Program-made: the position numbers and the translations under genes | Notes under the pieces: generated by a model | The model's database searches: none | The model's input: the letters and a program-made list of their open reading frames with translations, nothing else | What the model was told of the DNA's origin: nothing | Shown: positions 29,897 to 40,132 of the stretch, in pieces | Numbering within the stretch: the first letter of the stretch is position 1 | Layout: every line of letters begins with the position of its first letter | Origin: Georgenia sp. M64 | Lineage (GTDB): Bacteria > Actinomycetota > Actinomycetes > Actinomycetales > Actinomycetaceae | Length of the DNA stretch: 64,000 nt | NCBI RefSeq assembly: GCF_038049925.1 | Contig: NZ_CP145809.1 | Coordinates: 2,700,599-2,764,598 of the forward strand | Reading direction: 5' to 3'

Positions 29897-30166
29897 GGAA
29901 GTCCTGGTGTACGCCGGGTGCGCATTCGGTGCGCGGCCCGCCGCCGACGGACGGGACGACCCGCCGGCCGTCTCCGGCTCGGCGGTGCCTGCACCGGTGC
30001 CCCTGCTGCAGCGCACTCACCTGGTCTGGCGAGGCGGCGCGAGGTGGGCGCCCGGTACGAGGCGGTCGCGACGTCGTCGGACCGGAGAACGGGGTGTGGA
30101 TCTGCTCTCCGACCATCACGGAGTATCTCACAGGGCGGCCCGGTCCGGGCGGGACGCGCGCGGGAC

Positions 30167-30180
30167 GGACCAGGTGGTCC
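30167..30180 (+). promoter_or_regulatory. Secondary DevR-like palindrome upstream of cydA
   Basis: GGACCAGGTGGTCC has 6-bp inverted arms around a 2-nt centre. Its half-site spacing is 2 bp wider than a standard DevR box. Its centre is 33 bp (about three helical turns) upstream of the better box at 30200-30213, the arrangement expected for two cooperating dimers. Confidence 0.4.
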
Positions 30181-30199
30181 TGACGTCCCGTCATCTCCC

Positions 30200-30241
30200 G
30201 GGACCTTGGTCCCGGTACGCCACAGAGCCCGATCGTAGGTT
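30200..30241 (+). promoter_or_regulatory. Candidate DevR/DosR box and -10 element of the cydABDC-kinase operon
   Basis: GGGACCTTGGTCCC at 30200-30213 has exactly the half-sites and spacing of the DevR/DosR box (GGGAC, 4 nt, GTCCC). Its arms extend to 8 bp. A -10-like TAGGTT lies at 30236-30241, predicting transcription from about 30248, so the box is centred near -41.5, a classic activator position. The operon encodes a DevS-like kinase, with a DevR-like regulator next to it. Confidence 0.55.
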
Positions 30242-30324
30242 TGGACGTGGCAGAATTCGTGCTCGCACAGCCCGCCCCGGGCGCGGCGCGCCCCCCCTCC
30301 CCCCGTCTGAGAAGGGCTTCGAAG

Positions 30325-31818
30325 GTGGAGACACTCGACCTGGCTCGGTGGCAGTTCGGCATCACGACCGTCTACCACTTCGTCCTCGTCCCGCTGACGA
30401 TCGGCCTGGCGCCCCTGGTGGCCGGAATGCACACCGCGTGGGTGCGCACCGGCAAGGAGCACTGGCACCGCCTGACGAAGTTCTTCGGCAAGATCCTCCT
30501 CATCAACTTCGCCCTGGGTGTGGCCACGGGCATCGTGCAGGAGTTCCAGTTCGGGATGAACTGGTCGGAGTACTCCCGCTTCGTCGGCGACATCTTCGGC
30601 GCCCCGCTGGCCGTGGAGGCGCTCGCCGCGTTCTTCCTCGAGTCGACGTTCCTCGGGCTGTGGATCTTCGGCGAGGGCAAGCTGCCCCGCTGGCTGCACA
30701 GCCTCTCCATCTGGATGGTGGCGGTGGGCTCGACGATCTCCGCGTACTGGATCCTCGCGGCGAACTCGTGGATGCAGCACCCGGTCGGCGCGGTCTACAA
30801 CCCCGAGACGGGCCGGGCCGAGCTCGACGGCGTCGGCGGCTTCCTCGAGGTGATGACGAACAACACCCTCATCGCCGCGTTCTCGCACACCATCACGTCG
30901 GCGTTCCTCGTCGGCGGGACGTTCGTCGCCGGCATCTGCGGCTGGTGGATCGTGCGCTCGGTGCGCGCCGGACGGGAGAACGAGGCGCGACAGGTGTGGC
31001 GCCGCGGCGCGTACGTCGGCCTCGTCACGATCGTCCTGGCCGGGATCGGCGTCGTCGGGACCGGCGACATCCAGGGCAAGCTCATGTACGAGCAGCAGCC
31101 CATGAAGATGTCCGCCGCCGAGGCGCTGTGCGAGGGCACCGAGGGGGCCTCGTTCTCGCTGCTGACCATCGGCGACCTGTCCAACAGCTGCGAGAGCGCC
31201 CACGCCATCCTCGAGATCCCGGGCCTGACCTCCTTCCTCGGCACCGGCTCCTTCAGCGGCCCGGAGAGCTACCTCCCCGGCGTCAACGACATCCAGGCCG
31301 AGTACACCGAGCGCTACTCCGACGCCTTCGGCGAGGTCGACTACACCCCCAACCTCATGGTCACGTACTGGAGCTTCCGGCTCATGATCGGGCTGGCGGT
31401 CTTCTCCGCCGCCCTGGCGCTGGCCGGCCTGTGGCTCCTGCGCAGGGGCCGGGTCACCGACAAGATGTGGTTCTCCCGGCTGAGCCTGCTGGCCCTGCCC
31501 ATGCCGTTCCTCGCGGCGTCCTTCGGCTGGATCTTCACCGAGATGGGCCGCCAGCCCTGGGTGGTCCACCCCAACCCCGCCAACCCGGTCGACCAGGTGT
31601 ACCTCCTCACCCAGAACGGGGTCTCCACGGTCGTCTCGGCCGGCTCGGTCATCACCTCGCTGGTGGTCTTCACGCTGCTGTACGCGGCGCTCGGCGTGGT
31701 GTGGTTCATGCTCATCCGGCGCTACGTCCGCGAAGGGGTGCGCCCGCTGCCCGAGGACGTCACCGACGCGCCGCAGGGCACCGACGAGCCCGCACCGACC
31801 CTGTCCTTCGCGTACTGA
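30325..31818 (+). CDS. cydA: Cytochrome bd ubiquinol oxidase subunit I
   Basis: The haem-bearing subunit of the high-affinity bd oxidase, about 497 residues with nine predicted membrane helices. It has the haem-ligand helix FGITTVYHFVLVPLTIGL, the NFALGVATGIVQEFQFGMNW segment with quinol/haem residues and the diagnostic FGWIFTEMGRQPWVV near the C-terminal part. The Q-loop is of the short type usual in actinobacteria. GTG 30325 is chosen (AAGGG 8 nt upstream; family homology starts at ETLDLARWQFG). It is first gene of cydABDC plus a sensor kinase. Confidence 0.97.
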   Translation: METLDLARWQFGITTVYHFVLVPLTIGLAPLVAGMHTAWVRTGKEHWHRLTKFFGKILLINFALGVATGIVQEFQFGMNWSEYSRFVGDIFGAPLAVEALAAFFLESTFLGLWIFGEGKLPRWLHSLSIWMVAVGSTISAYWILAANSWMQHPVGAVYNPETGRAELDGVGGFLEVMTNNTLIAAFSHTITSAFLVGGTFVAGICGWWIVRSVRAGRENEARQVWRRGAYVGLVTIVLAGIGVVGTGDIQGKLMYEQQPMKMSAAEALCEGTEGASFSLLTIGDLSNSCESAHAILEIPGLTSFLGTGSFSGPESYLPGVNDIQAEYTERYSDAFGEVDYTPNLMVTYWSFRLMIGLAVFSAALALAGLWLLRRGRVTDKMWFSRLSLLALPMPFLAASFGWIFTEMGRQPWVVHPNPANPVDQVYLLTQNGVSTVVSAGSVITSLVVFTLLYAALGVVWFMLIRRYVREGVRPLPEDVTDAPQGTDEPAPTLSFAY

Positions 31819-31842: not shown

Positions 31843-32907
31843 GTGGACCTCCCCCTCCTGTGGTTCCTGCTCATCGCGGTCCTGTGGACCGGCTACCTCG
31901 TCCTCGAGGGCTTCGACTTCGGCGTCGGCATGCTGCTGCGCCCCTTCGCCCGTGACGAGAACGAGCGCCGCGCCATGCTGCGCACCATCGGGCCCGTCTG
32001 GGACGGCAACGAGGTGTGGCTGCTCACCGCGGGCGGCGCGACCTTCGCGGCCTTCCCCGAGTGGTACGCCACGATGTTCTCCGGCTTCTACCTGCCGTTG
32101 CTGCTCATCCTCTTCGCGCTCATCATCCGCATCGTCGCGATCGAGTGGCGCGCGAAGATCGACGACCCTCGCTGGCGCGGCCGCTGGGACTGGGCCCACA
32201 CCGTCGGCGCCTGGATCCCGGCGGTCCTGTGGGGCGTGGCGTTCGCCAACCTCGTCCAGGGCATGGAGATCGAGGTGGTCGACGGCAACCACCAGCTCGT
32301 CGGCGGGTTCTTCTCGCTCATCACGCCGTTCACCCTCCTCGGTGGGGTCATGACCGCCACGGTCTTCCTCACCCACGGCGCGGTCTTCCTGGCGCTGAAG
32401 ACCGACGGCGAGATCCGCCACCGCGCCGGCGCCCTGGCGGCCCGGCTGTCGGTGCTCTCCCTCGTTGTCGCCGGGGTGTGGGCCGTGTGGGCGCAGCTGG
32501 CGTTCTCCGCCCACTCCCTCACGTGGGTCCCGCTGGTCGTGGCCGCCGTCGCCCTGGTCGGCGTCGTCGTGGCCACCCGTGAACGCCGCGAGGGCTGGGC
32601 GTTCGTCCTCAACGCCGTCGCGATCGTCGCGGCCGTGGTCCTCATCTTCGGGACCATGTACCCCAACGTCATGCCCTCCTCGCTGGACCCGGCGTGGTCG
32701 CTGAGCATCGACCAGGCCGCCTCGACCGACGCCACGCTCACGGTGATGAGCATCGTCGCGCTGTTCTTCGTGCCGGTCGTCCTGGCCTACCAGGGCTGGA
32801 CGTACTGGGTGTTCCGCAAGCGCATCGTCGCCGCGCCGGGCGGTGGCGACGACGGCCTGCACCCCACCGACGTCCGCGCGTTCGAGTCCAGCACTGGGGC
32901 ACACTGA
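31843..32907 (+). CDS. cydB: Cytochrome bd ubiquinol oxidase subunit II
   Basis: A 354-residue membrane subunit with eight to nine helices. The hallmark LEGFDFGVGML is at the N-terminus and GPVWDGNEVWLLTAGGATFAAFP follows. It pairs with CydA to form the oxidase that supports respiration at low O2. GTG start at 31843 with GGAG upstream, 24 bp after cydA. Confidence 0.96.
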   Translation: MDLPLLWFLLIAVLWTGYLVLEGFDFGVGMLLRPFARDENERRAMLRTIGPVWDGNEVWLLTAGGATFAAFPEWYATMFSGFYLPLLLILFALIIRIVAIEWRAKIDDPRWRGRWDWAHTVGAWIPAVLWGVAFANLVQGMEIEVVDGNHQLVGGFFSLITPFTLLGGVMTATVFLTHGAVFLALKTDGEIRHRAGALAARLSVLSLVVAGVWAVWAQLAFSAHSLTWVPLVVAAVALVGVVVATRERREGWAFVLNAVAIVAAVVLIFGTMYPNVMPSSLDPAWSLSIDQAASTDATLTVMSIVALFFVPVVLAYQGWTYWVFRKRIVAAPGGGDDGLHPTDVRAFESSTGAH

Positions 32908-32911
32908 GGCG

Positions 32912-34606
32912 GTGAAGCCGCTCGACCCACGCCTGCTCAGGCACGCCCGGGCGGCCCGCCGCTACATCGCCCTGACGGCGGTGACGGGGCTCGTCACCGC
33001 CGCGGCCGTGATCGCCCAGGCCGTGCTCGTCGCCCGCGCGGTCTCCCCCGTCGTCGAGGGCCGGGCGGGCTGGGCGCAGGCCGCGCCGCTCGTGGCCGCC
33101 CTGGCCGGGGTGCTGGTGCTGCGCGCCGTCGTCCTGGTCGTCCAGGAGTCCCTCGCCCACCGCGCCGCCCGTGACGTCGTCGCCGAGCTGCGCGAGCAGG
33201 TCCTCGCCCGGGCGGTGGCCCTGGGCCCGCGGTGGCTCGCCGACGGCAACGGCCCGCGGGTGGTCACCCTGGCCACCCGGGGGCTGGACGACCTCGAGCC
33301 CTACTTCGTGCGCTACCTTCCCCAGCTGCTGCTCGCCGCGACGGTCACCCCCGCCACGGTCCTGGTGATCCTCGGGCTGGACCTCACCTCGGCGCTCATC
33401 GTCGCCGCGACGATCCCCCTCATCCCGGTCTTCATGTGGCTCATCGGGGTGCTCACCCAGCGCTTCGCCGCCGAGCGGCTGGTCGCGATGCAGCGCCTGG
33501 GCACCCAGCTCCTCGACCTCCTCGCGGGCCTGGCCACCCTCAAGGCCCTCGGCCGGGAGCAGGGACCGGCCGCACGGGTGCGCGAGCTGGGGCAGGCCTA
33601 CACCCGCACGACGATGGCCACGCTCAAGGTCGCCTTCCTCTCGGGGGCGGTGCTGGAGTTCCTCGCGTCGATCTCCGTGGCGCTCGTGGCGGTGACGATC
33701 GGCATGCGCATGGTCTACGGCGGGCTGGACCTCACCACGGGCCTCACCGTGCTCATGCTCGCGCCCGAGGTGTACCGCCCGCTTCGCGAGGTGGGCTCGC
33801 ACTTCCACGCCTCCGCGGACGGCGTCGCCGCCGCCGAGCAGGCCTTCGCCGTCCTCGAGGAGCGCCCGGCCACGCCGGGCACCGTCCCCGCCCCCGATCT
33901 GCGCCGCACCGACATCGTCCTCGACGGCGTGAGCGTGGCGGCGCCGGGCCGGGCCACCTGGGCGCCGTGGCGGCTGAGCGCGCGCCTGCACCCCGGGCGC
34001 GTGGTCGCCCTCGCCGGCCCCTCGGGCGCCGGCAAGACGACGGCCGCGCAGGTGGTCCTCGGGCTGCTCCGGCCGGACGAGGGCTCGGTGCGCCTGGAGG
34101 GCGCGGCCGGCACCGGACCGACCGACCTCGACCTCGCCGACGTCGAGCCCGGCTCGTGGTTCGACCAGATCACCTGGGTGCCGCAGCGCCCGGTCATCGT
34201 GCCCGGGACCGTGCGGGCGAACGTCCTGGGTGACCGCCCGGTCGACGACGCCGCCACCACCGCCGCGCGCGCCACCGGCCTCGACGCCGTCCTGGCCGAG
34301 CTGCCCCGGGGCTGGGAGACGCCTCTGGGCCACGGCGGGGTGGGGTTGTCCGTGGGGCAGCGTCAACGGCTCGCCCTGACCGCGGCCCTCCTCGGTGGCG
34401 CCCCGCTCGTCGTCCTCGACGAGCCGACCGCCCACCTCGACGCCGCCGCGGAGCAGCACGTCCTCGACGCCGTGGCGGCCCTGCGCGACCAGGGCCGCAC
34501 CGTCGTCGTCATCGCCCACCGCGCCGCCCTGCTCGACCTCGCCGACGACGTCGTCACGGTCGCCGCGGCCCCGGCCACCATCGAGCCTGCCGAGGCCTGG
34601 TCATGA
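32912..34606 (+). CDS. cydD: CydD subunit of the CydDC ABC exporter
   Basis: A 564-residue half-transporter: six-helix ABC exporter domain (about 1-310), then the nucleotide-binding domain with Walker A AGPSGAGKTTA, a signature region GVGLSVGQRQRLALTAAL and Walker B PLVVLDEPTAHLD. CydDC exports reduced thiols and is needed to assemble cytochrome bd. GTG 32912 is chosen, 4 bp after the cydB stop. It overlaps cydC by 4 bp. Confidence 0.94.
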   Translation: MKPLDPRLLRHARAARRYIALTAVTGLVTAAAVIAQAVLVARAVSPVVEGRAGWAQAAPLVAALAGVLVLRAVVLVVQESLAHRAARDVVAELREQVLARAVALGPRWLADGNGPRVVTLATRGLDDLEPYFVRYLPQLLLAATVTPATVLVILGLDLTSALIVAATIPLIPVFMWLIGVLTQRFAAERLVAMQRLGTQLLDLLAGLATLKALGREQGPAARVRELGQAYTRTTMATLKVAFLSGAVLEFLASISVALVAVTIGMRMVYGGLDLTTGLTVLMLAPEVYRPLREVGSHFHASADGVAAAEQAFAVLEERPATPGTVPAPDLRRTDIVLDGVSVAAPGRATWAPWRLSARLHPGRVVALAGPSGAGKTTAAQVVLGLLRPDEGSVRLEGAAGTGPTDLDLADVEPGSWFDQITWVPQRPVIVPGTVRANVLGDRPVDDAATTAARATGLDAVLAELPRGWETPLGHGGVGLSVGQRQRLALTAALLGGAPLVVLDEPTAHLDAAAEQHVLDAVAALRDQGRTVVVIAHRAALLDLADDVVTVAAAPATIEPAEAWS

Positions 34607-36513
34607 CCGCTCCCGCCCCGCCCGCCCCGCCGGTGGTGGCCGACCGTCCGGTGGTCCTGCCGGCCGATGAGCGCCGGGCCCTGCGCCGGGCCGTCGGGCT
34701 GCTGGCCCTGGACCGGGTGCGTCTGCTCTGGGCGGTGCTCGCCGGCAGCGCGGGGCTCGGCAGCGCCGTGGCGCTCACGGCGACCTCCGCCTGGCTCATC
34801 GCCCGTGCCTCCCAGATGCCGCCCGTGCTGGAGCTGTCCGTCGCAGCGGTGGCGGTGCGGACCTTCGGCATCTCCCGTGCGGTGCTGCGCTACCTCGAGC
34901 GCCTCGCCTCCCACCTGGTGGCGCTGCGCGGCATGGCGGCGCTGCGCGAGACGGTCTACCGCCGGCTCGCGGCCGGCCGCACCGACGCCGTCGCCGGTCT
35001 GCGCCGCGGGGACCTCCTGGCCCGGACGGGCGCCGACGTCGACGCGGTCGGCGACGTCGTCGTCCGCGCCCTGCTGCCCGCGGTGGTCGCCGCGGTCGTC
35101 GGGGTCGGGTCGGTCGTCCTCGTCGCGTGGCTGCACCCCGGTGCCGGCGCCGTGCTGGCCGTCTGCCTCGTCGTCGCGGGCGTCCTCGGGCCGTGGCTGA
35201 GCATGCGGGCGGCCCGGCTCGCCGAGCACGCCCAGGTCCTCGCCCGCGGCGAGCTCGCCGCCACGGCCATGACGATGGTCGACGGCGCCGCCGAGCTCAC
35301 CGTCTCGCAGCGCGTCGCACCGCTCCTGCGCGCCGTGGGCCGGACCGAGCGCGAGCTGGCCACCGCCAAGGACGCGGCCGCCCGGCCCGCCGCGCTCGCC
35401 GCAGGCATCGACAGCCTCGCCATGGGCGTGGCCGTGCTCGGCGCCATCGTGCTGGGGATCCCCGCGACCGTGGCTGGCGCGCTCCAGCCGGTCGAGCTCG
35501 CCGTCGTGGTCCTCACCCCGCTGGCCGCGTTCGAGGGCACCGCCATGCTCGGCCCGGCGGCCGTGCAGCTCGTCCGGTCCGCCGGCTCGGCGGTACGGGT
35601 CATGGCGCTGCTCGACGCGGCCGGTCCGGACGCCGGGACCGGGGCGCCCGCCGCGCAGGCGGCGCCGGTCGCCGCGGCAACGGCGCGGCCCACGAGCGGT
35701 CGCGCCCTCGTCCCGGGCCGTGCCGAGCCGTCCGCTACGGACGGGCCACGGCTGTGCGCCCGGGGACTCGCCGTGGGCTGGCCCGGCGGCCCGGTCGTCG
35801 CCGAGAGCCTCGACCTGGACCTCGCGCCCGGCCGCGCGCTCGCCGTGGTCGGCCCCAGCGGGATCGGCAAGACCACCCTCCTCCTCACCCTCGCGGGCCT
35901 GCTGCCGCCGCGGGCCGGCACGGTCACCCTCGACGGGACGCAGGTGTGGGGCCGCTCCCGCGAGGAGGTCAGCCGGCAGGTCGTCCTCACGGCCGAGGAC
36001 GCGCACGTCTTCGCCACGACCGTCCTGGAGAACCTCCGCGTCGCCCGTGGCGACCTCACCGAGGACGACGCCGTCGACCTGCTGCGCCGCGCCGGCCTGG
36101 GCGACTGGCTCGCCGGCCTGCCCGCCGGGACGGCCACCGGGCTCGGCACCGACGCCGCCACGATCTCCGGCGGGGAGCGCCGGCGCCTGCTCCTGGCCCG
36201 GGCGCTCGCCAGCCCCGCCCGGCTCCTGCTGCTCGACGAGCCCGCGGAGCACCTGGACCCGACCACCGCCGACCGCCTGGTCACCGACCTCCTGCGGGCC
36301 GGGCAGGACGTCGCCGGCCGCGGGGTCCTGCTCGTGACCCACCGGCTCGCCGCCCTCGGCGCCGCGGACGAGGTCGTGGTCCTCGGCCCGGCGGGTGACG
36401 CGGGCGCGAGGCCGCCCGCACCGGCTACCGTGCTGGCGAGGGGCTCGCACACCGAGCTCCTGGCCACCGTGCCCGCCTACCGGTGGGCCGCCGAGCAGGA
36501 GGAGCGACGATGA
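34603..36513 (+). CDS. cydC: CydC subunit of the CydDC ABC exporter
   Basis: A 636-residue half-transporter. The membrane domain (about 20-330) includes ARASQMPPVLELSVAAVAVR and FGISRAVLRYLERLASH, typical of CydC. An Ala-rich linker (about 340-380) precedes the nucleotide-binding domain, with Walker A GPSGIGKTTL, signature ATISGGERRRLLLARAL and Walker B LLLLDEPAEHLD. It heterodimerises with CydD. The stop overlaps the sensor-kinase start by 4 bp, so kinase synthesis is coupled to cydC. Confidence 0.94.
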   Translation: MTAPAPPAPPVVADRPVVLPADERRALRRAVGLLALDRVRLLWAVLAGSAGLGSAVALTATSAWLIARASQMPPVLELSVAAVAVRTFGISRAVLRYLERLASHLVALRGMAALRETVYRRLAAGRTDAVAGLRRGDLLARTGADVDAVGDVVVRALLPAVVAAVVGVGSVVLVAWLHPGAGAVLAVCLVVAGVLGPWLSMRAARLAEHAQVLARGELAATAMTMVDGAAELTVSQRVAPLLRAVGRTERELATAKDAAARPAALAAGIDSLAMGVAVLGAIVLGIPATVAGALQPVELAVVVLTPLAAFEGTAMLGPAAVQLVRSAGSAVRVMALLDAAGPDAGTGAPAAQAAPVAAATARPTSGRALVPGRAEPSATDGPRLCARGLAVGWPGGPVVAESLDLDLAPGRALAVVGPSGIGKTTLLLTLAGLLPPRAGTVTLDGTQVWGRSREEVSRQVVLTAEDAHVFATTVLENLRVARGDLTEDDAVDLLRRAGLGDWLAGLPAGTATGLGTDAATISGGERRRLLLARALASPARLLLLDEPAEHLDPTTADRLVTDLLRAGQDVAGRGVLLVTHRLAALGAADEVVVLGPAGDAGARPPAPATVLARGSHTELLATVPAYRWAAEQEERR

Positions 36514-38255
36514 GCGCCGAGGCCCCCGGCGACGACGGCATCCACGTCCGCCGGGCCACCGACGCCACCGGCGGCGCCGACCGGCGCCCGGACACCATCG
36601 CCTCGAACACCTCCTCCCTCCTCGGCGCGGCGATCGACCTCACCTCGCACCTGGACGTCCAGGCCGCGCTCAAGAACTTCGTCGACCGTGCCGCGCGCCT
36701 GTCCGGGGCCCGCTACGCCGCGCTCGGCGTCCTCGACAGCCGCGGCAACACCACCGCGTTCGTCCAGGTGGGCGTCAGCGAGGAGGTGCAGGCGGTCCTC
36801 CGACACCCGCCGCGGGGGTACGGCGTGCTCGGGGCCATCCCCGTCGACGGCCCGCTCCTGCTGGACGACCTCACCCAGCACCCCGACTTCGGGGGCTTCC
36901 CGCCCGGCCACCCCCCGATGCACTCCTTCCTCGGGGTGCCGGTGCGGGTCAACGAGCAGGTCTTCGGCCGGCTGTACCTGGCCGAGAAGCTGGGTGGGTT
37001 CACCGAGCACGACGCCCAGGACATGATGAGCCTGGCGGAGGCGGCCGCGGTCGCCATCGAGAACTCCCGCCTCTACGCCGAGGCGCGCAACCGCGAGCGC
37101 TGGATCGCGGTGAGCCAGGACATCACCACCACGCTGCTCGAGGGCACCGAGGAGGAGGAGGCCCTGGAGATGATCGTCTCCCGGGTCCGCGACGTCGCCG
37201 AGGCCGACACCGCGCTCATCGTGCTGCCCTCCGTCGGGGACGCCTGGGCGTGCGAGATCGCCGACGGGTACCTCGCCGGGGACCTCCTCGGCCTGGTCTT
37301 CCCGCCCGACGGCCGGGCCATGACGGTCCTCAAGGAGGGCACCGGCCTCATCGTCGACTCCCTCACCCGGCTGCGCACGCTGCGCCTGCGCGAGCTCGCC
37401 CAGTTCGGCCCGGCCCTGTACGCGCCGATGATGCTGCGCGGTGAGGGCAAGGGCGTGCTCCTGCTGCTCCGGCGCATCGGCGGGCCGGAGTTCGACCCCT
37501 CCGACCGCGCCATGGCCGAGTCGGTCGCCCGTCAGGCCGCTCTGGCCCTCGAGCTCGCCGCGGCCCGGCACGCCCAGGACGTCGCGGCGCTGCTCGACGA
37601 GCGCGCCCGCATCGGCCGCGACCTGCACGACCTGGCCATCCAGCAGCTCTTCGCCACCGGCATGCAGCTCGAGGCCGCCCGCACCGCCGCCGCCGAGCGG
37701 GGCGACCCGGCCCTGACCACGCTCCTCGAGGACTCCCTGTCCAGCGTGGACGAGTCCGTCAAGCAGATCCGCGCCATCGTGCACTCCCTGCGCGAGCCGG
37801 ACACCGCCGTCGTGCTCGTCGAGCGGCTACGGCGCGAGGCCTCCCTCGCCCGGACCTCGCTGGGGTACGCCCCCTCGCTCGTCATCGACGTCGAGGGCAC
37901 CGTCATCTCCGACGACGACGCCCAGGCCGGGCTGGTCGACATCATCGACGACCGGGTCGACGCGGACATCTCCGACGACGTCGTCGCGGTGGTCCGCGAG
38001 GGACTGTCCAACGCCGCCCGCCACGCCCGGGCCGCCTCGGTCCAGGTGCGCGTGAGCGTGCTCGGCTCCGGCCCGACCGGCCGCGTGATCGTCGACGTCG
38101 AGGACGACGGCGGCGGCGTCGACCCCACCGTGAGCCGTCGCTCCGGACTGGCCAACCTCGCCACCCGCGCCCGGCGGCACGGCGGGACGTTCTCCCTCGG
38201 CAAGAGCGAGCGCGGCCAGGGCAGCCTCATGAGCTGGCAGGTGCCGCTCAGCTAG
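36510..38255 (+). CDS. DevS/DosS-like sensor histidine kinase (two GAF domains)
   Basis: A 581-residue soluble kinase. GAF-A (about 45-195) contains FPPGHPPMHSFLGVPVRV, the region that carries the haem-binding His in mycobacterial DosS/DosT; His134 and His138 are candidates. GAF-B spans about 215-365. The HisKA_3 box ERARIGRDLHDLAIQQL has the phospho-acceptor His373, and the ATPase domain has VVREGLSNAARHA and a final Gly-rich lid. DosS/DosT sense O2, NO and CO through haem and phosphorylate DevR. Coupling to cydABDC suggests that it senses O2 or redox state and controls the bd oxidase; the partner is probably the convergent regulator at 38361-39017. Confidence 0.88.
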   Translation: MSAEAPGDDGIHVRRATDATGGADRRPDTIASNTSSLLGAAIDLTSHLDVQAALKNFVDRAARLSGARYAALGVLDSRGNTTAFVQVGVSEEVQAVLRHPPRGYGVLGAIPVDGPLLLDDLTQHPDFGGFPPGHPPMHSFLGVPVRVNEQVFGRLYLAEKLGGFTEHDAQDMMSLAEAAAVAIENSRLYAEARNRERWIAVSQDITTTLLEGTEEEEALEMIVSRVRDVAEADTALIVLPSVGDAWACEIADGYLAGDLLGLVFPPDGRAMTVLKEGTGLIVDSLTRLRTLRLRELAQFGPALYAPMMLRGEGKGVLLLLRRIGGPEFDPSDRAMAESVARQAALALELAAARHAQDVAALLDERARIGRDLHDLAIQQLFATGMQLEAARTAAAERGDPALTTLLEDSLSSVDESVKQIRAIVHSLREPDTAVVLVERLRREASLARTSLGYAPSLVIDVEGTVISDDDAQAGLVDIIDDRVDADISDDVVAVVREGLSNAARHARAASVQVRVSVLGSGPTGRVIVDVEDDGGGVDPTVSRRSGLANLATRARRHGGTFSLGKSERGQGSLMSWQVPLS

Positions 38256-38360: not shown

Positions 38361-39017
38361 TCAGCCCCGCCAGCCGGCGGCGCGCTGCCCGGCGACCCAG
38401 GCGGCGACCTGGGTGCGGCGCTGCAGACCCATCTTCGACAGCAGCGCCGTGATGTGGTTCTTCACGGTCTTCTCCGCCACGCCCAGCCGGTCGCCGATCT
38501 CGCGGTTGGACAGGCCGTCGCCGATGAGCTCGAGCACGCGGCGCTCGGACGGGGTGAGGTCGGCGGTGGGGTCCTCGTGGTCCGCGCGCCGGCGGGTGAC
38601 CGTCCGCTCGTCCAGGAGGGTGCGGCCCGAGGCGACGGCCCGCACGACGTCGGCGATCTCCGCGCCGCGGACGGTCTTGAGCAGGTAGGCCTTGGCGCCG
38701 GCCGCGAGGGCGGAAGCGAGCGCGTCGTCGTCGTCGAATGACGTCAGGACGATGGGCCGCGCGTCCGGCACCTTCTCGCGCAGGGTGGCGATGATGTCGA
38801 TGCCGGTGCCGTCGGGCAGCTGCAGGTCGACGAGGAGGACCTCGGGCCGGACGAGCTGCGCCCGGCGCACGGCCTCGGCCACCGAGCCGGCCTCCGCGAC
38901 GACCGTGAGGCCCTCGGCGCGGTCGACGATCTCCGCGATCCCCCGACGCACGACCTCGTGGTCGTCGATGATCATGACCCGGATGTCGTGAACGGGCGTC
39001 TCCTGCGTGTTCGGCAC
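38361..39017 (-). CDS. DevR/DosR-like NarL-family response regulator
   Basis: A 218-residue two-domain regulator. The receiver domain has acidic pocket D18-D19, phospho-acceptor Asp64 (LLVDLQLPDG), Thr92 and Lys114. The LuxR-type helix-turn-helix LTPSERRVLELIGDGLSNRE is followed by AEKTVKNHITALLSKMG and RRTQVA, close to the DNA-reading helix of mycobacterial DevR. The recognition helix AEKTVKN is the part that contacts GGGAC half-sites in DevR. GTG 39017 is the likely start. It is convergent with the DevS-like kinase, 105 bp apart, and has its own promoter. Confidence 0.88.
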   Translation of the reverse strand: MPNTQETPVHDIRVMIIDDHEVVRRGIAEIVDRAEGLTVVAEAGSVAEAVRRAQLVRPEVLLVDLQLPDGTGIDIIATLREKVPDARPIVLTSFDDDDALASALAAGAKAYLLKTVRGAEIADVVRAVASGRTLLDERTVTRRRADHEDPTADLTPSERRVLELIGDGLSNREIGDRLGVAEKTVKNHITALLSKMGLQRRTQVAAWVAGQRAAGWRG

Positions 39018-39109
39018 GCCCCGAGCCTACCCAAGGTGGCGGGTTTTCCCGGCATCTCGGCACCCGCCGGACGTGGCGCGGAACACATCCCGGGCCCGGG
39101 GCACCGCGG

Positions 39110-40132
39110 TCACGCGCGCGCCCGGCGCTGGCAGCCCGGGCAGGAGAACGAGCTGCGGTTCATGAACTGCTCCCGCCGGATCGGCCGTCCGCACCGCGGG
39201 CACGGCAGGCCCTCGCGGCCGTAGGCGTTGAGGGAGCGCCCGAAGTACCCGGCGGCGCCCTCGACGTCGACGTAGAGGGCGTCGAAGGACGTCCCCCCGA
39301 CCGCCAGCGCCTCGCGCATGACGTCGGTCGCGGCGTCGAGCAGCTCGCGCACCCGCGCCGGCGAGAGTCGGTCCGTGGGCCGGGAGCCGTGGAGGCGGGC
39401 GCGCCACAGGGCCTCGTCGGCGTAGATGTTGCCCACGCCGGAGACGAGGGTCTGGTCGAGGAGGGCGCGCTTGACCTCGGTGCGCCTGGCCCGGGTGCGC
39501 CGGACGAGCGCGGCGCGGTCGAGCGCGGGGTCGAGGAGGTCGCGGGCGATGTGCGCCACCGGTGCGGGCAGGACCGGCGCCGCGCTGCCGTGACCGCCGG
39601 GCCCGCCGTCGGCCGTGGGGACCGTGCCGGCGACCAGGACGTGGCCGAAGGTGCGCTGGTCGACGAACCAGAGCTGGCCGCCATCGTCGAAGGTCAGCCG
39701 CACGCGCAGGTGCGCGGTGGAGAGCGGGACGGTCCGCACGAGCGTCGGCGGGAGGGTGGCGGTGAGGTCGCGGGCGGGCCCGTCGGCGACGAACGCGGCG
39801 GCGTCGGCGTCGTGGCGCCGGCTGCCGTCGGGCTCCTGGACGAGGAGCTGGCCCGACATTCCCAGGTGGGCGACGAGCGCCTCCTGGGGCAGGTCGTGCT
39901 CAGTAAGCTCACCCGGCTCACCCGGTTCACCGAGGTTGAGCCACAGGTACTTCCCGCGCCGGACCGCGGCGGCGACCGTGCGGCCGGCCACCCGGGCGAC
40001 GAGCTCGGCGGCCCCGCCGGGCTGACGGCGGACCGCCCTCGGGTGCAGCACCTCCGCGGTCGCCACCCGTCGGCCGACGACCCGGCCGGCGAGGCCGGCC
40101 CGGACCGTCTCGACCTCGGGGAGCTCAGGCAC
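39110..40132 (-). CDS. mutM: Formamidopyrimidine-DNA glycosylase (Fpg)
   Basis: Excises 8-oxoguanine and ring-opened purines and nicks abasic sites. The 340-residue protein begins (after GTG=Met) with [13 protein letters not shown], in which Pro2 and Glu3 are the catalytic residues. It has the RRGKYLW lysine, [19 protein letters not shown] and a C-terminal zinc finger with CPRCG and CPGCQ. Short inserts at about 75-85 (GEPGEPGE) and about 180-195 are Gly/Pro-rich. The start overlaps the end of rnc by 8 bp. Confidence 0.95.

Follow-up and report, generated by a model that had tools for sequence, protein, structure and literature searches.

A conserved DevR/DosR-type operator predicted upstream of a cydABDC operon that ends in a DevS-like kinase gene in Georgenia sp. 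M64

Organization of the cydABDC-kinase locus

The analysed stretch of Georgenia sp. M64 DNA (64,000 nucleotides, hereafter the window) carries a cytochrome bd oxidase gene cluster on its forward strand. The gene for subunit I, cydA (30325..31818; Pfam PF01654, E 8e-156), has a GTG start, which was picked by frame score together with a ribosome-binding site, the Shine-Dalgarno sequence AGAAGGG at approximately 30310. It is followed on the same strand by cydB (31843..32907, scoring above the cut-off of TIGR00203), by cydD (32912..34606; TIGR02857, 581.8 bits with a cut-off of 435, start taken from a codon-usage gene caller), and by cydC (34603..36513; TIGR02868, 574.9 bits with a cut-off of 329), which shares an ATGA overlap with cydD. 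The ATG of the next forward-strand gene (36510..38255), encoding a DevS/DosT-like kinase with GAF, GAF, HisKA_3 and HATPase_c domains according to Pfam, overlaps the cydC stop. Because of the ATGA overlaps at both the cydD/cydC and the cydC/kinase junctions, we read the kinase gene as a member of the operon. Convergent with it, on the reverse strand, lies a gene for a DevR-like response regulator of the NarL family (38361..39017). The best PDB match of its product is Mycobacterium tuberculosis DevR (3c3w, E 6.6e-53), with the recognition-helix sequence AEKTVKN common to both and the aspartate of its VLLVD segment, the phosphoacceptor, aligned to that of VAVLD in DevR. An earlier sequence-only reading of this DNA had proposed that a two-GAF DevS-like kinase closes the cyd operon and that a regulator with the DevR recognition helix converges with it, and the domain and structure matches agree with both proposals.

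Matches to the kinase were found in 150 of 151 genomes of the family, the same count as for cydA. In 136 of the 145 genomes with both genes listed, cydA was upstream of the kinase gene on the same strand, with the two starts 5.9-10.3 kb apart; in the 9 others, the genes were on different contigs in 8 and truly apart in one (G002). The linkage of cyd and kinase genes is an old arrangement in the family. Elsewhere in the class their adjacency is sporadic, seen by eye in G170, G414, G406, G419 and G366 among the matches listed.

A predicted DevR/DosR-type operator in the cydA promoter

Upstream of cydA, the 8-bp arms CCGGGACC and GGTCCCGG, separated by TT, form a palindrome at 30198-30215. Its core, GGGACCTTGGTCCC at 30200-30213, matches GGGACN4GTCCC exactly, as no other place in the window does. 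A predicted -10 hexamer, TAGGTT (30236..30241, forward strand), begins 22 nt past the core, or about 20 nt past the end of the 8-bp arms, and would set the transcript start at approximately 30248, from which arithmetic gives a box centre of -41.5; the cydA GTG at 30325 lies 111 nt past the core. The half-sites of a DevR box with their 4-nt spacing and extended arms, as well as the position of -41.5 relative to TAGGTT, had been pointed out from the sequence before. The half-sites, spacing and arms are present as described, and the placement agrees with the coordinates of the predicted start and is backed by conservation. The loose motif is without enrichment in the window, where up to two mismatches gave 69 matches, fewer than the 137 expected as the mean of shuffles. 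Near cydA, a consensus scan showed no sigma-70-like promoter. A role of the palindrome as a terminator or in the leader RNA was dropped, since no terminator-like site was found there and the leader RNA folded no better than its shuffles.

To a distance of 350 nt upstream of cydA, we searched for the box in 110 family genomes (30 loci plus 80 fetched loci). With the N4 spacing, 35 genomes had an exact box and 51 had one when a single mismatch was allowed, leaving 59 genomes with none at that threshold. In comparison, the other spacings (N0-N3 and N5-N8) gave no exact match and 1-7 matches within one mismatch, and 20 rounds of approximate dinucleotide shuffling of the same 110 upstream regions gave on average 0.1 exact matches and 2.5 within one mismatch. 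The box was concentrated among close relatives: the 35 most similar cydA genes had 27 exact boxes and 33 within one mismatch, compared to 8 and 18 for the remaining 75. Among the 51 promoters with a box when one mismatch is allowed, 27 carry a TAnnnT sequence at 22 or 23 nt past the core. Similarly, in the best 80 of 552 named loci, a sample which partly overlaps the 110-genome set and in which cydA was within the reach of evaluation for the box in 59, with cydA lying within 60, a box within one mismatch preceded 39 of the 59 evaluable genes, many of them from Cellulomonas. Outside the family but in the same class, 8 of 29 genomes had a box with at most one mismatch, which was exact in 3, and one of these 29 also had an exact palindrome with the N0 control spacing; none of 20 genomes of family f11 had a box within one mismatch at cydA. 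Taken together, the palindrome is real, and is very probably an operator of the DevR/DosR type.

Genome-wide distribution of the box

The exact GGGACN4GTCCC pattern occurred 35 times in the Georgenia genome, compared to 6 times for its reversed pattern. All spacings from N0 to 12 together occupied 205 places, with an average of approximately 14 for the 12 spacings other than N4. According to a simple codon-usage gene caller, 26 of the 35 exact sites (25 of 34 outside the window plus the window site) were intergenic, compared to 5 of 20 control-spacing sites (N2, N3, N5 and one N6, among the matches listed; Fisher p 6e-4), one of those 5 partly overlapping a gene. By this caller, genes take up 0.86 of the window and 0.82 of 128 kb taken arbitrarily from the genome; the motif statistics come from pattern searches and fetched stretches. 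A sharpened motif, RGGACNWWNGTCCY, which we derived from the conserved promoters, had 22 sites compared to 2 for its reversed control, and 21 of the 22 were intergenic. The 22nd falls inside the first codons of an NrdJ-like frame, but the best model match of this frame starts only at residue 22, so the box probably precedes the true start. With both the 35 exact and the 22 sharpened sites exceeding their reversed controls, the motif does not occur at chance frequency. TAnnnT at a distance of 22 or 23 nt was found in 6 of the 44 orientations of the 22 RGGACNWWNGTCCY sites (window included), compared to 8 over 53 other offsets.

Genes next to RGGACNWWNGTCCY sites include nrdD (class III ribonucleotide reductase), nrdJ (class II), feoA, nuoA and ctaC, as well as genes for a cobalamin adenosyltransferase, a flavodoxin, a thioredoxin, a Usp protein, a 2-oxoglutarate dehydrogenase, an argininosuccinate-lyase-like protein, regulators of the CsoR and ArsR types, and a weak match to Fe-S biosynthesis. 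Where an exact box lacks the A/T centre, the neighbours include nrdF (class Ib) and genes for arginine deiminase, for another flavodoxin, for another thioredoxin together with a rhodanese, and for an NADH-dehydrogenase-like oxidoreductase. Other neighbours do not look hypoxia-related: ribosomal protein S16, a GDSL lipase, a TetR gene, a subtilase, an alpha-amylase-like gene, a CAAX-type protease, a CNNM-type transporter, and several genes without family. Some boxes are probably chance occurrences, more likely those that lack the A/T centre. From their neighbours, the boxes are predicted to mark a hypoxia regulon. The self-contained circuit of oxidase and sensor that the sequence-only reading had envisaged is not what the genome presents, as box sites number approximately 22 and extend to the aa3 oxidase as well as to ribonucleotide reductase genes.

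Conservation was also seen at nrdD, where 13 of 30 upstream regions had an exact box and 17 of 30 a box within one mismatch (best 30 of 54 genomes with a match). In the same 30, no spacing from N0 to N8 other than N4 gave an exact box, and no -10 sequence was found at a fixed distance from the box. Each of the three classes of ribonucleotide reductase has a gene with a box beside it: nrdJ, nrdF and nrdD (loci L048, L001, L002 and L359, which include the cobalamin adenosyltransferase). Downstream of the box at nrdD, paired ACAACATnTTGTGGT-type repeats, which we take to be NrdR-like, were observed by eye (L300-L328).

The box at the aa3 oxidase

In the same genome, a box that reads AGGACGAAGGTCCC in the direction of the gene is located upstream of ctaC, which encodes subunit II of cytochrome c oxidase. 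A ctaC match was obtained in 17 of 61 family genomes, and among these 17 the box was present within one mismatch in 12 and exactly in 5; among the other spacings from N0 to N8, none gave an exact box and the best gave 3 with up to one mismatch. Each of the 12 boxed upstream regions has a TAnnnT that starts 12-16 nt ahead of the box, so the box would span approximately +1 to +18, over the predicted start, and a regulator bound there should block transcription. Thus the same operator is present at both oxidases, in positions which predict opposite effects: activation of cyd and repression of ctaC.

Predicted haem-sensor features of the kinase

The first GAF domain (GAF-A) of the kinase aligned to DosS GAF-A structures (E 2e-32). 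In a predicted model of the protein, this part superimposed on DosS GAF-A 2w3d with a TM score of 0.87 over the target, 1.6 A rmsd and 43% identity, the pTM of the whole kinase model being 0.47. Tandem GAF, HisKA_3 and HATPase_c domains are all present. In DosS, His149 is the proximal and Tyr171 the distal residue (PMC4082495), and in the alignment both are kept in the window kinase, as His and Tyr. At the position of DosS Glu87 the window kinase has Gly, and DosT is described as having Gly85 there (PMC4082495). The Gly is compatible with a true oxygen sensor, although it is no proof of one. A search of the genome returned one DevS-like kinase, while three other matches covered the kinase domain only.

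Among the best 80 of 552 named loci, the nearest kinases belong to Georgenia ruanii (84%) and its kin. The haem His is kept in 55 of these 80 kinases. Judging from the alignment, some relatives have lost the haem histidine of GAF-A, and in 12 of the 80, all from Actinomyces, Glu replaces it; the sensor input may have been replaced in those Actinomyces kinases. They fall within the named loci L271-L294. A canonical cydA promoter was present in 30 of 38 rows with His and in 0 of 21 without (Fisher p 8e-10 by plain counting), a count over 59 evaluable rows which omits the 21 of 80 without an evaluable promoter. Two of the rows counted as without His, L252 and L260, owe this to gaps in the alignment, and in L260 none of the four columns can be read. 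On the tree, loss of His and loss of the promoter could be compared in 4-5 independent pairs, for which a sign test was non-significant (median p 0.5), and the link between the two losses is treated as a correlation confounded by descent.

Comparison with known systems

DevR/DosR is mainly known as a mycobacterial dormancy regulator, and as a regulator of stress and development in Streptomyces. By their sequences, the components described here are of the DevS-DevR kind. They share with DevS/DosT-DevR (DosRST) of M. tuberculosis the equivalents of GAF-A His149 and Tyr171, the second GAF domain, HisKA_3, a NarL-family regulator with AEKTVKN, a GGGACNNNNGTCCC-type operator, and a Usp gene beside a box; operators of this type are recognizable by sequence upstream of predicted target genes in the Georgenia genome. 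While the parts themselves are of a kind already known, the wiring differs from DosRST: here the kinase gene closes the cydABDC operon, and oxidase, ribonucleotide reductase and nuoA genes have boxes. For M. smegmatis, cydA is described as activated by Crp1 (PMC7739888), and loss of DosR is described as leaving growth in CO unchanged (PMC8125079).

OsdK-OsdR of Streptomyces coelicolor likewise has a DevR-type regulator and Usp targets (PMC5069765). SCO3948 is named as the kinase closest to OsdK (PMC5069765) and cydAB corresponds to SCO3945-3946 (PMC7931247), locus numbers which suggest that this kinase gene is near cydAB. Unlike the case of Georgenia, the predicted OsdR sites in Table 1 of PMC5069765, with the consensus AGGGCCGATCGGCCCT, include no cyd gene, and for S. 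lividans, where cyd is co-expressed with OsdR, the directness of the effect "remains unclear" according to PMC6302529. A functional analogue is HrrSA of Corynebacterium glutamicum, a two-component system which ranks the bc1-aa3 and bd oxidases; unlike the system here, it answers to haem, favours aa3, and reaches cydABCD through sigC, as described in PMC7337898. In a transcriptome of Cellulomonas fimi, chromate lowers cydA/B, with no regulator named in the portions of PMC10251745 that were covered.

At the level of titles and the beginnings of abstracts, with subscription journals mostly outside the scope, no DevR-type box at cyd or cta genes was found in the literature, and the portions of the cited papers that were covered do not include a bd oxidase among the shown DevR/DosR targets. 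In the present data, a DevR-type box is conserved at the bd oxidase (cydA) in Georgenia, Cellulomonas, Actinotalea and kin, and, from smaller samples of family genomes, at the aa3 oxidase (ctaC) and the class III ribonucleotide reductase (nrdD). The sensor is built together with the oxidase under its predicted control. An older role of the system, and the effect of placing a sensor inside its own target operon, thereby become testable.

A model of low-oxygen control and its alternatives

The explanation that we consider best, with a probability of nearly 0.8, is that the box is the operator of the 38361-39017 regulator, which under a low-oxygen signal from the kinase would raise cyd, lower ctaC, and act at approximately 22 sites. 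When oxygen falls, the haem-GAF kinase would phosphorylate the regulator. The regulator would then bind GGGACNWWNGTCCC at -41.5, substitute for a -35 element, and recruit polymerase to the TAnnnT -10 sequence, by which cydABDC and the kinase itself would be raised. It would also serve the other sites, among them those of the class II/III ribonucleotide reductase genes, feoA, the usp gene and nuoA, and would repress the aa3 oxidase from the box that covers the predicted ctaC start. Since the kinase would be made from the operon that it raises, the sensor should amplify its own signal. devR is autoregulated. Upstream of the regulator gene (beyond 39017), no box within one mismatch was found, the one two-mismatch match being at 39100-39113, and the gene may be co-read from a same-strand gene upstream of it. 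In Streptomyces, a predicted OsdR site is placed at osdR itself (PMC5069765). With the kinase last in the operon and the regulator lacking a clear box of its own, we infer that feedback runs via the sensor and not via the regulator. Several observations count against this explanation: 59 of 110 family genomes and all 20 of family f11 lack a box within one mismatch at cydA, the loose motif is not enriched in the window, the consensus scan gave no sigma-70-like promoter near cydA, some neighbours of boxes do not fit hypoxia, the genome has other possible binders, and the regulator gene has no close box before it. On balance, a relative of the tuberculosis dormancy regulator seems to serve this soil-type actinobacterium as a general switch for low oxygen, predicted to turn the high-affinity oxidase on and the ordinary one off.

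A wider form of this reading, on which we would lean neither way, is that operator position sets the output, with bd oxidase and haem sensor turned on from -41.5 and aa3 turned off from over the start; that the same regulator would shift deoxyribonucleotide synthesis away from class I and towards the B12-dependent reductase and the oxygen-free one; and that the tuberculosis switch would be a branch of an older actinobacterial respiratory switch resembling ArcA/FNR.

The box could instead be the true operator of another NarL-family regulator, with the local kinase and regulator controlling something else. The genome encodes many response regulators, with 30 matches to the domains of the regulator, several of them near full length, and therefore other binders exist; but the next-best regulators are only 38-39% identical to the 38361-39017 regulator. 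Additionally, the recognition helix GVAEKTVKNH was identical in 16 of 16 kinase-adjacent regulators found at 20 sampled loci (at the 4 others, no regulator was found within the fetched stretch beside the kinase), the AEKTVKN portion is common to DevR, and the genomic motif matches what we take to be the mycobacterial DevR box of the GGGACNNNNGTCCC type. We consider this alternative unlikely.

Equally improbable is that the main activator of cyd is a factor acting on TGACRNNNYGTCA at approximately -61, with the DevR box modulating or repressing. The element in question, TGACGTCCCGTCA (30181..30193), has its centre 19.5 bp further upstream than that of the box. In the 110 cydA upstream regions, an N5 spacing between TGAC and GTCA was found in 27 and an N6 spacing in 7, with 0-2 for each of the rest up to N12, and genome-wide all 12 TGACRNNNYGTCA sites were outside called genes, although one (L216) is surrounded by no called gene and another (L210) lies between two gene ends. 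The sites adjoin cydA, ctaC, hemC and, at 18 nt, a MerR-type gene, and the element looks like a candidate operator of a respiratory or haem regulator. Against a leading role, the palindrome is absent in many relatives which keep the box and the -10 sequence, including most Cellulomonas loci among the best 80 of 552 named loci. Finally, that the cydA palindrome is a chance GC-rich inverted repeat, a terminator part or an RNA hairpin is scarcely credible: a GC content of 0.74 favours such palindromes and the window has fewer loose matches than its shuffles give, but spacing-specific conservation across 110 genomes, the A/T centre and the fixed -10 distance speak against a chance repeat, which conservation and intergenic placement already make very unlikely, and the lack of a terminator-like site and the shuffle-level leader folding speak against a terminator or hairpin.

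The identity of the second element was revised as well. The palindrome first noticed 33 bp upstream of the box, GGACCAGGTGGTCC (30167..30180), is at that position, but just 3 of the 110 cydA upstream regions from the family share its GGACC-N4-GGTCC pattern; it was dropped as a conserved element and is probably not a functional part. The conserved second element, by the same comparison, is TGACRNNNYGTCA. Rfam at the gathering threshold returned nothing in the 12 loci that bear it. One TGACRNNNYGTCA site separates a CarD-type gene from a frame that diverges from it; this site and others of the 12 are at loci L211, L213, L218 and L219. Four more of the 12, near-identical copies with the sequence TGACGACTCGTCA, were located near TrwC relaxase genes (L209, L212, L215 and L217), and are perhaps a transfer-origin or control site of a family of integrated elements.
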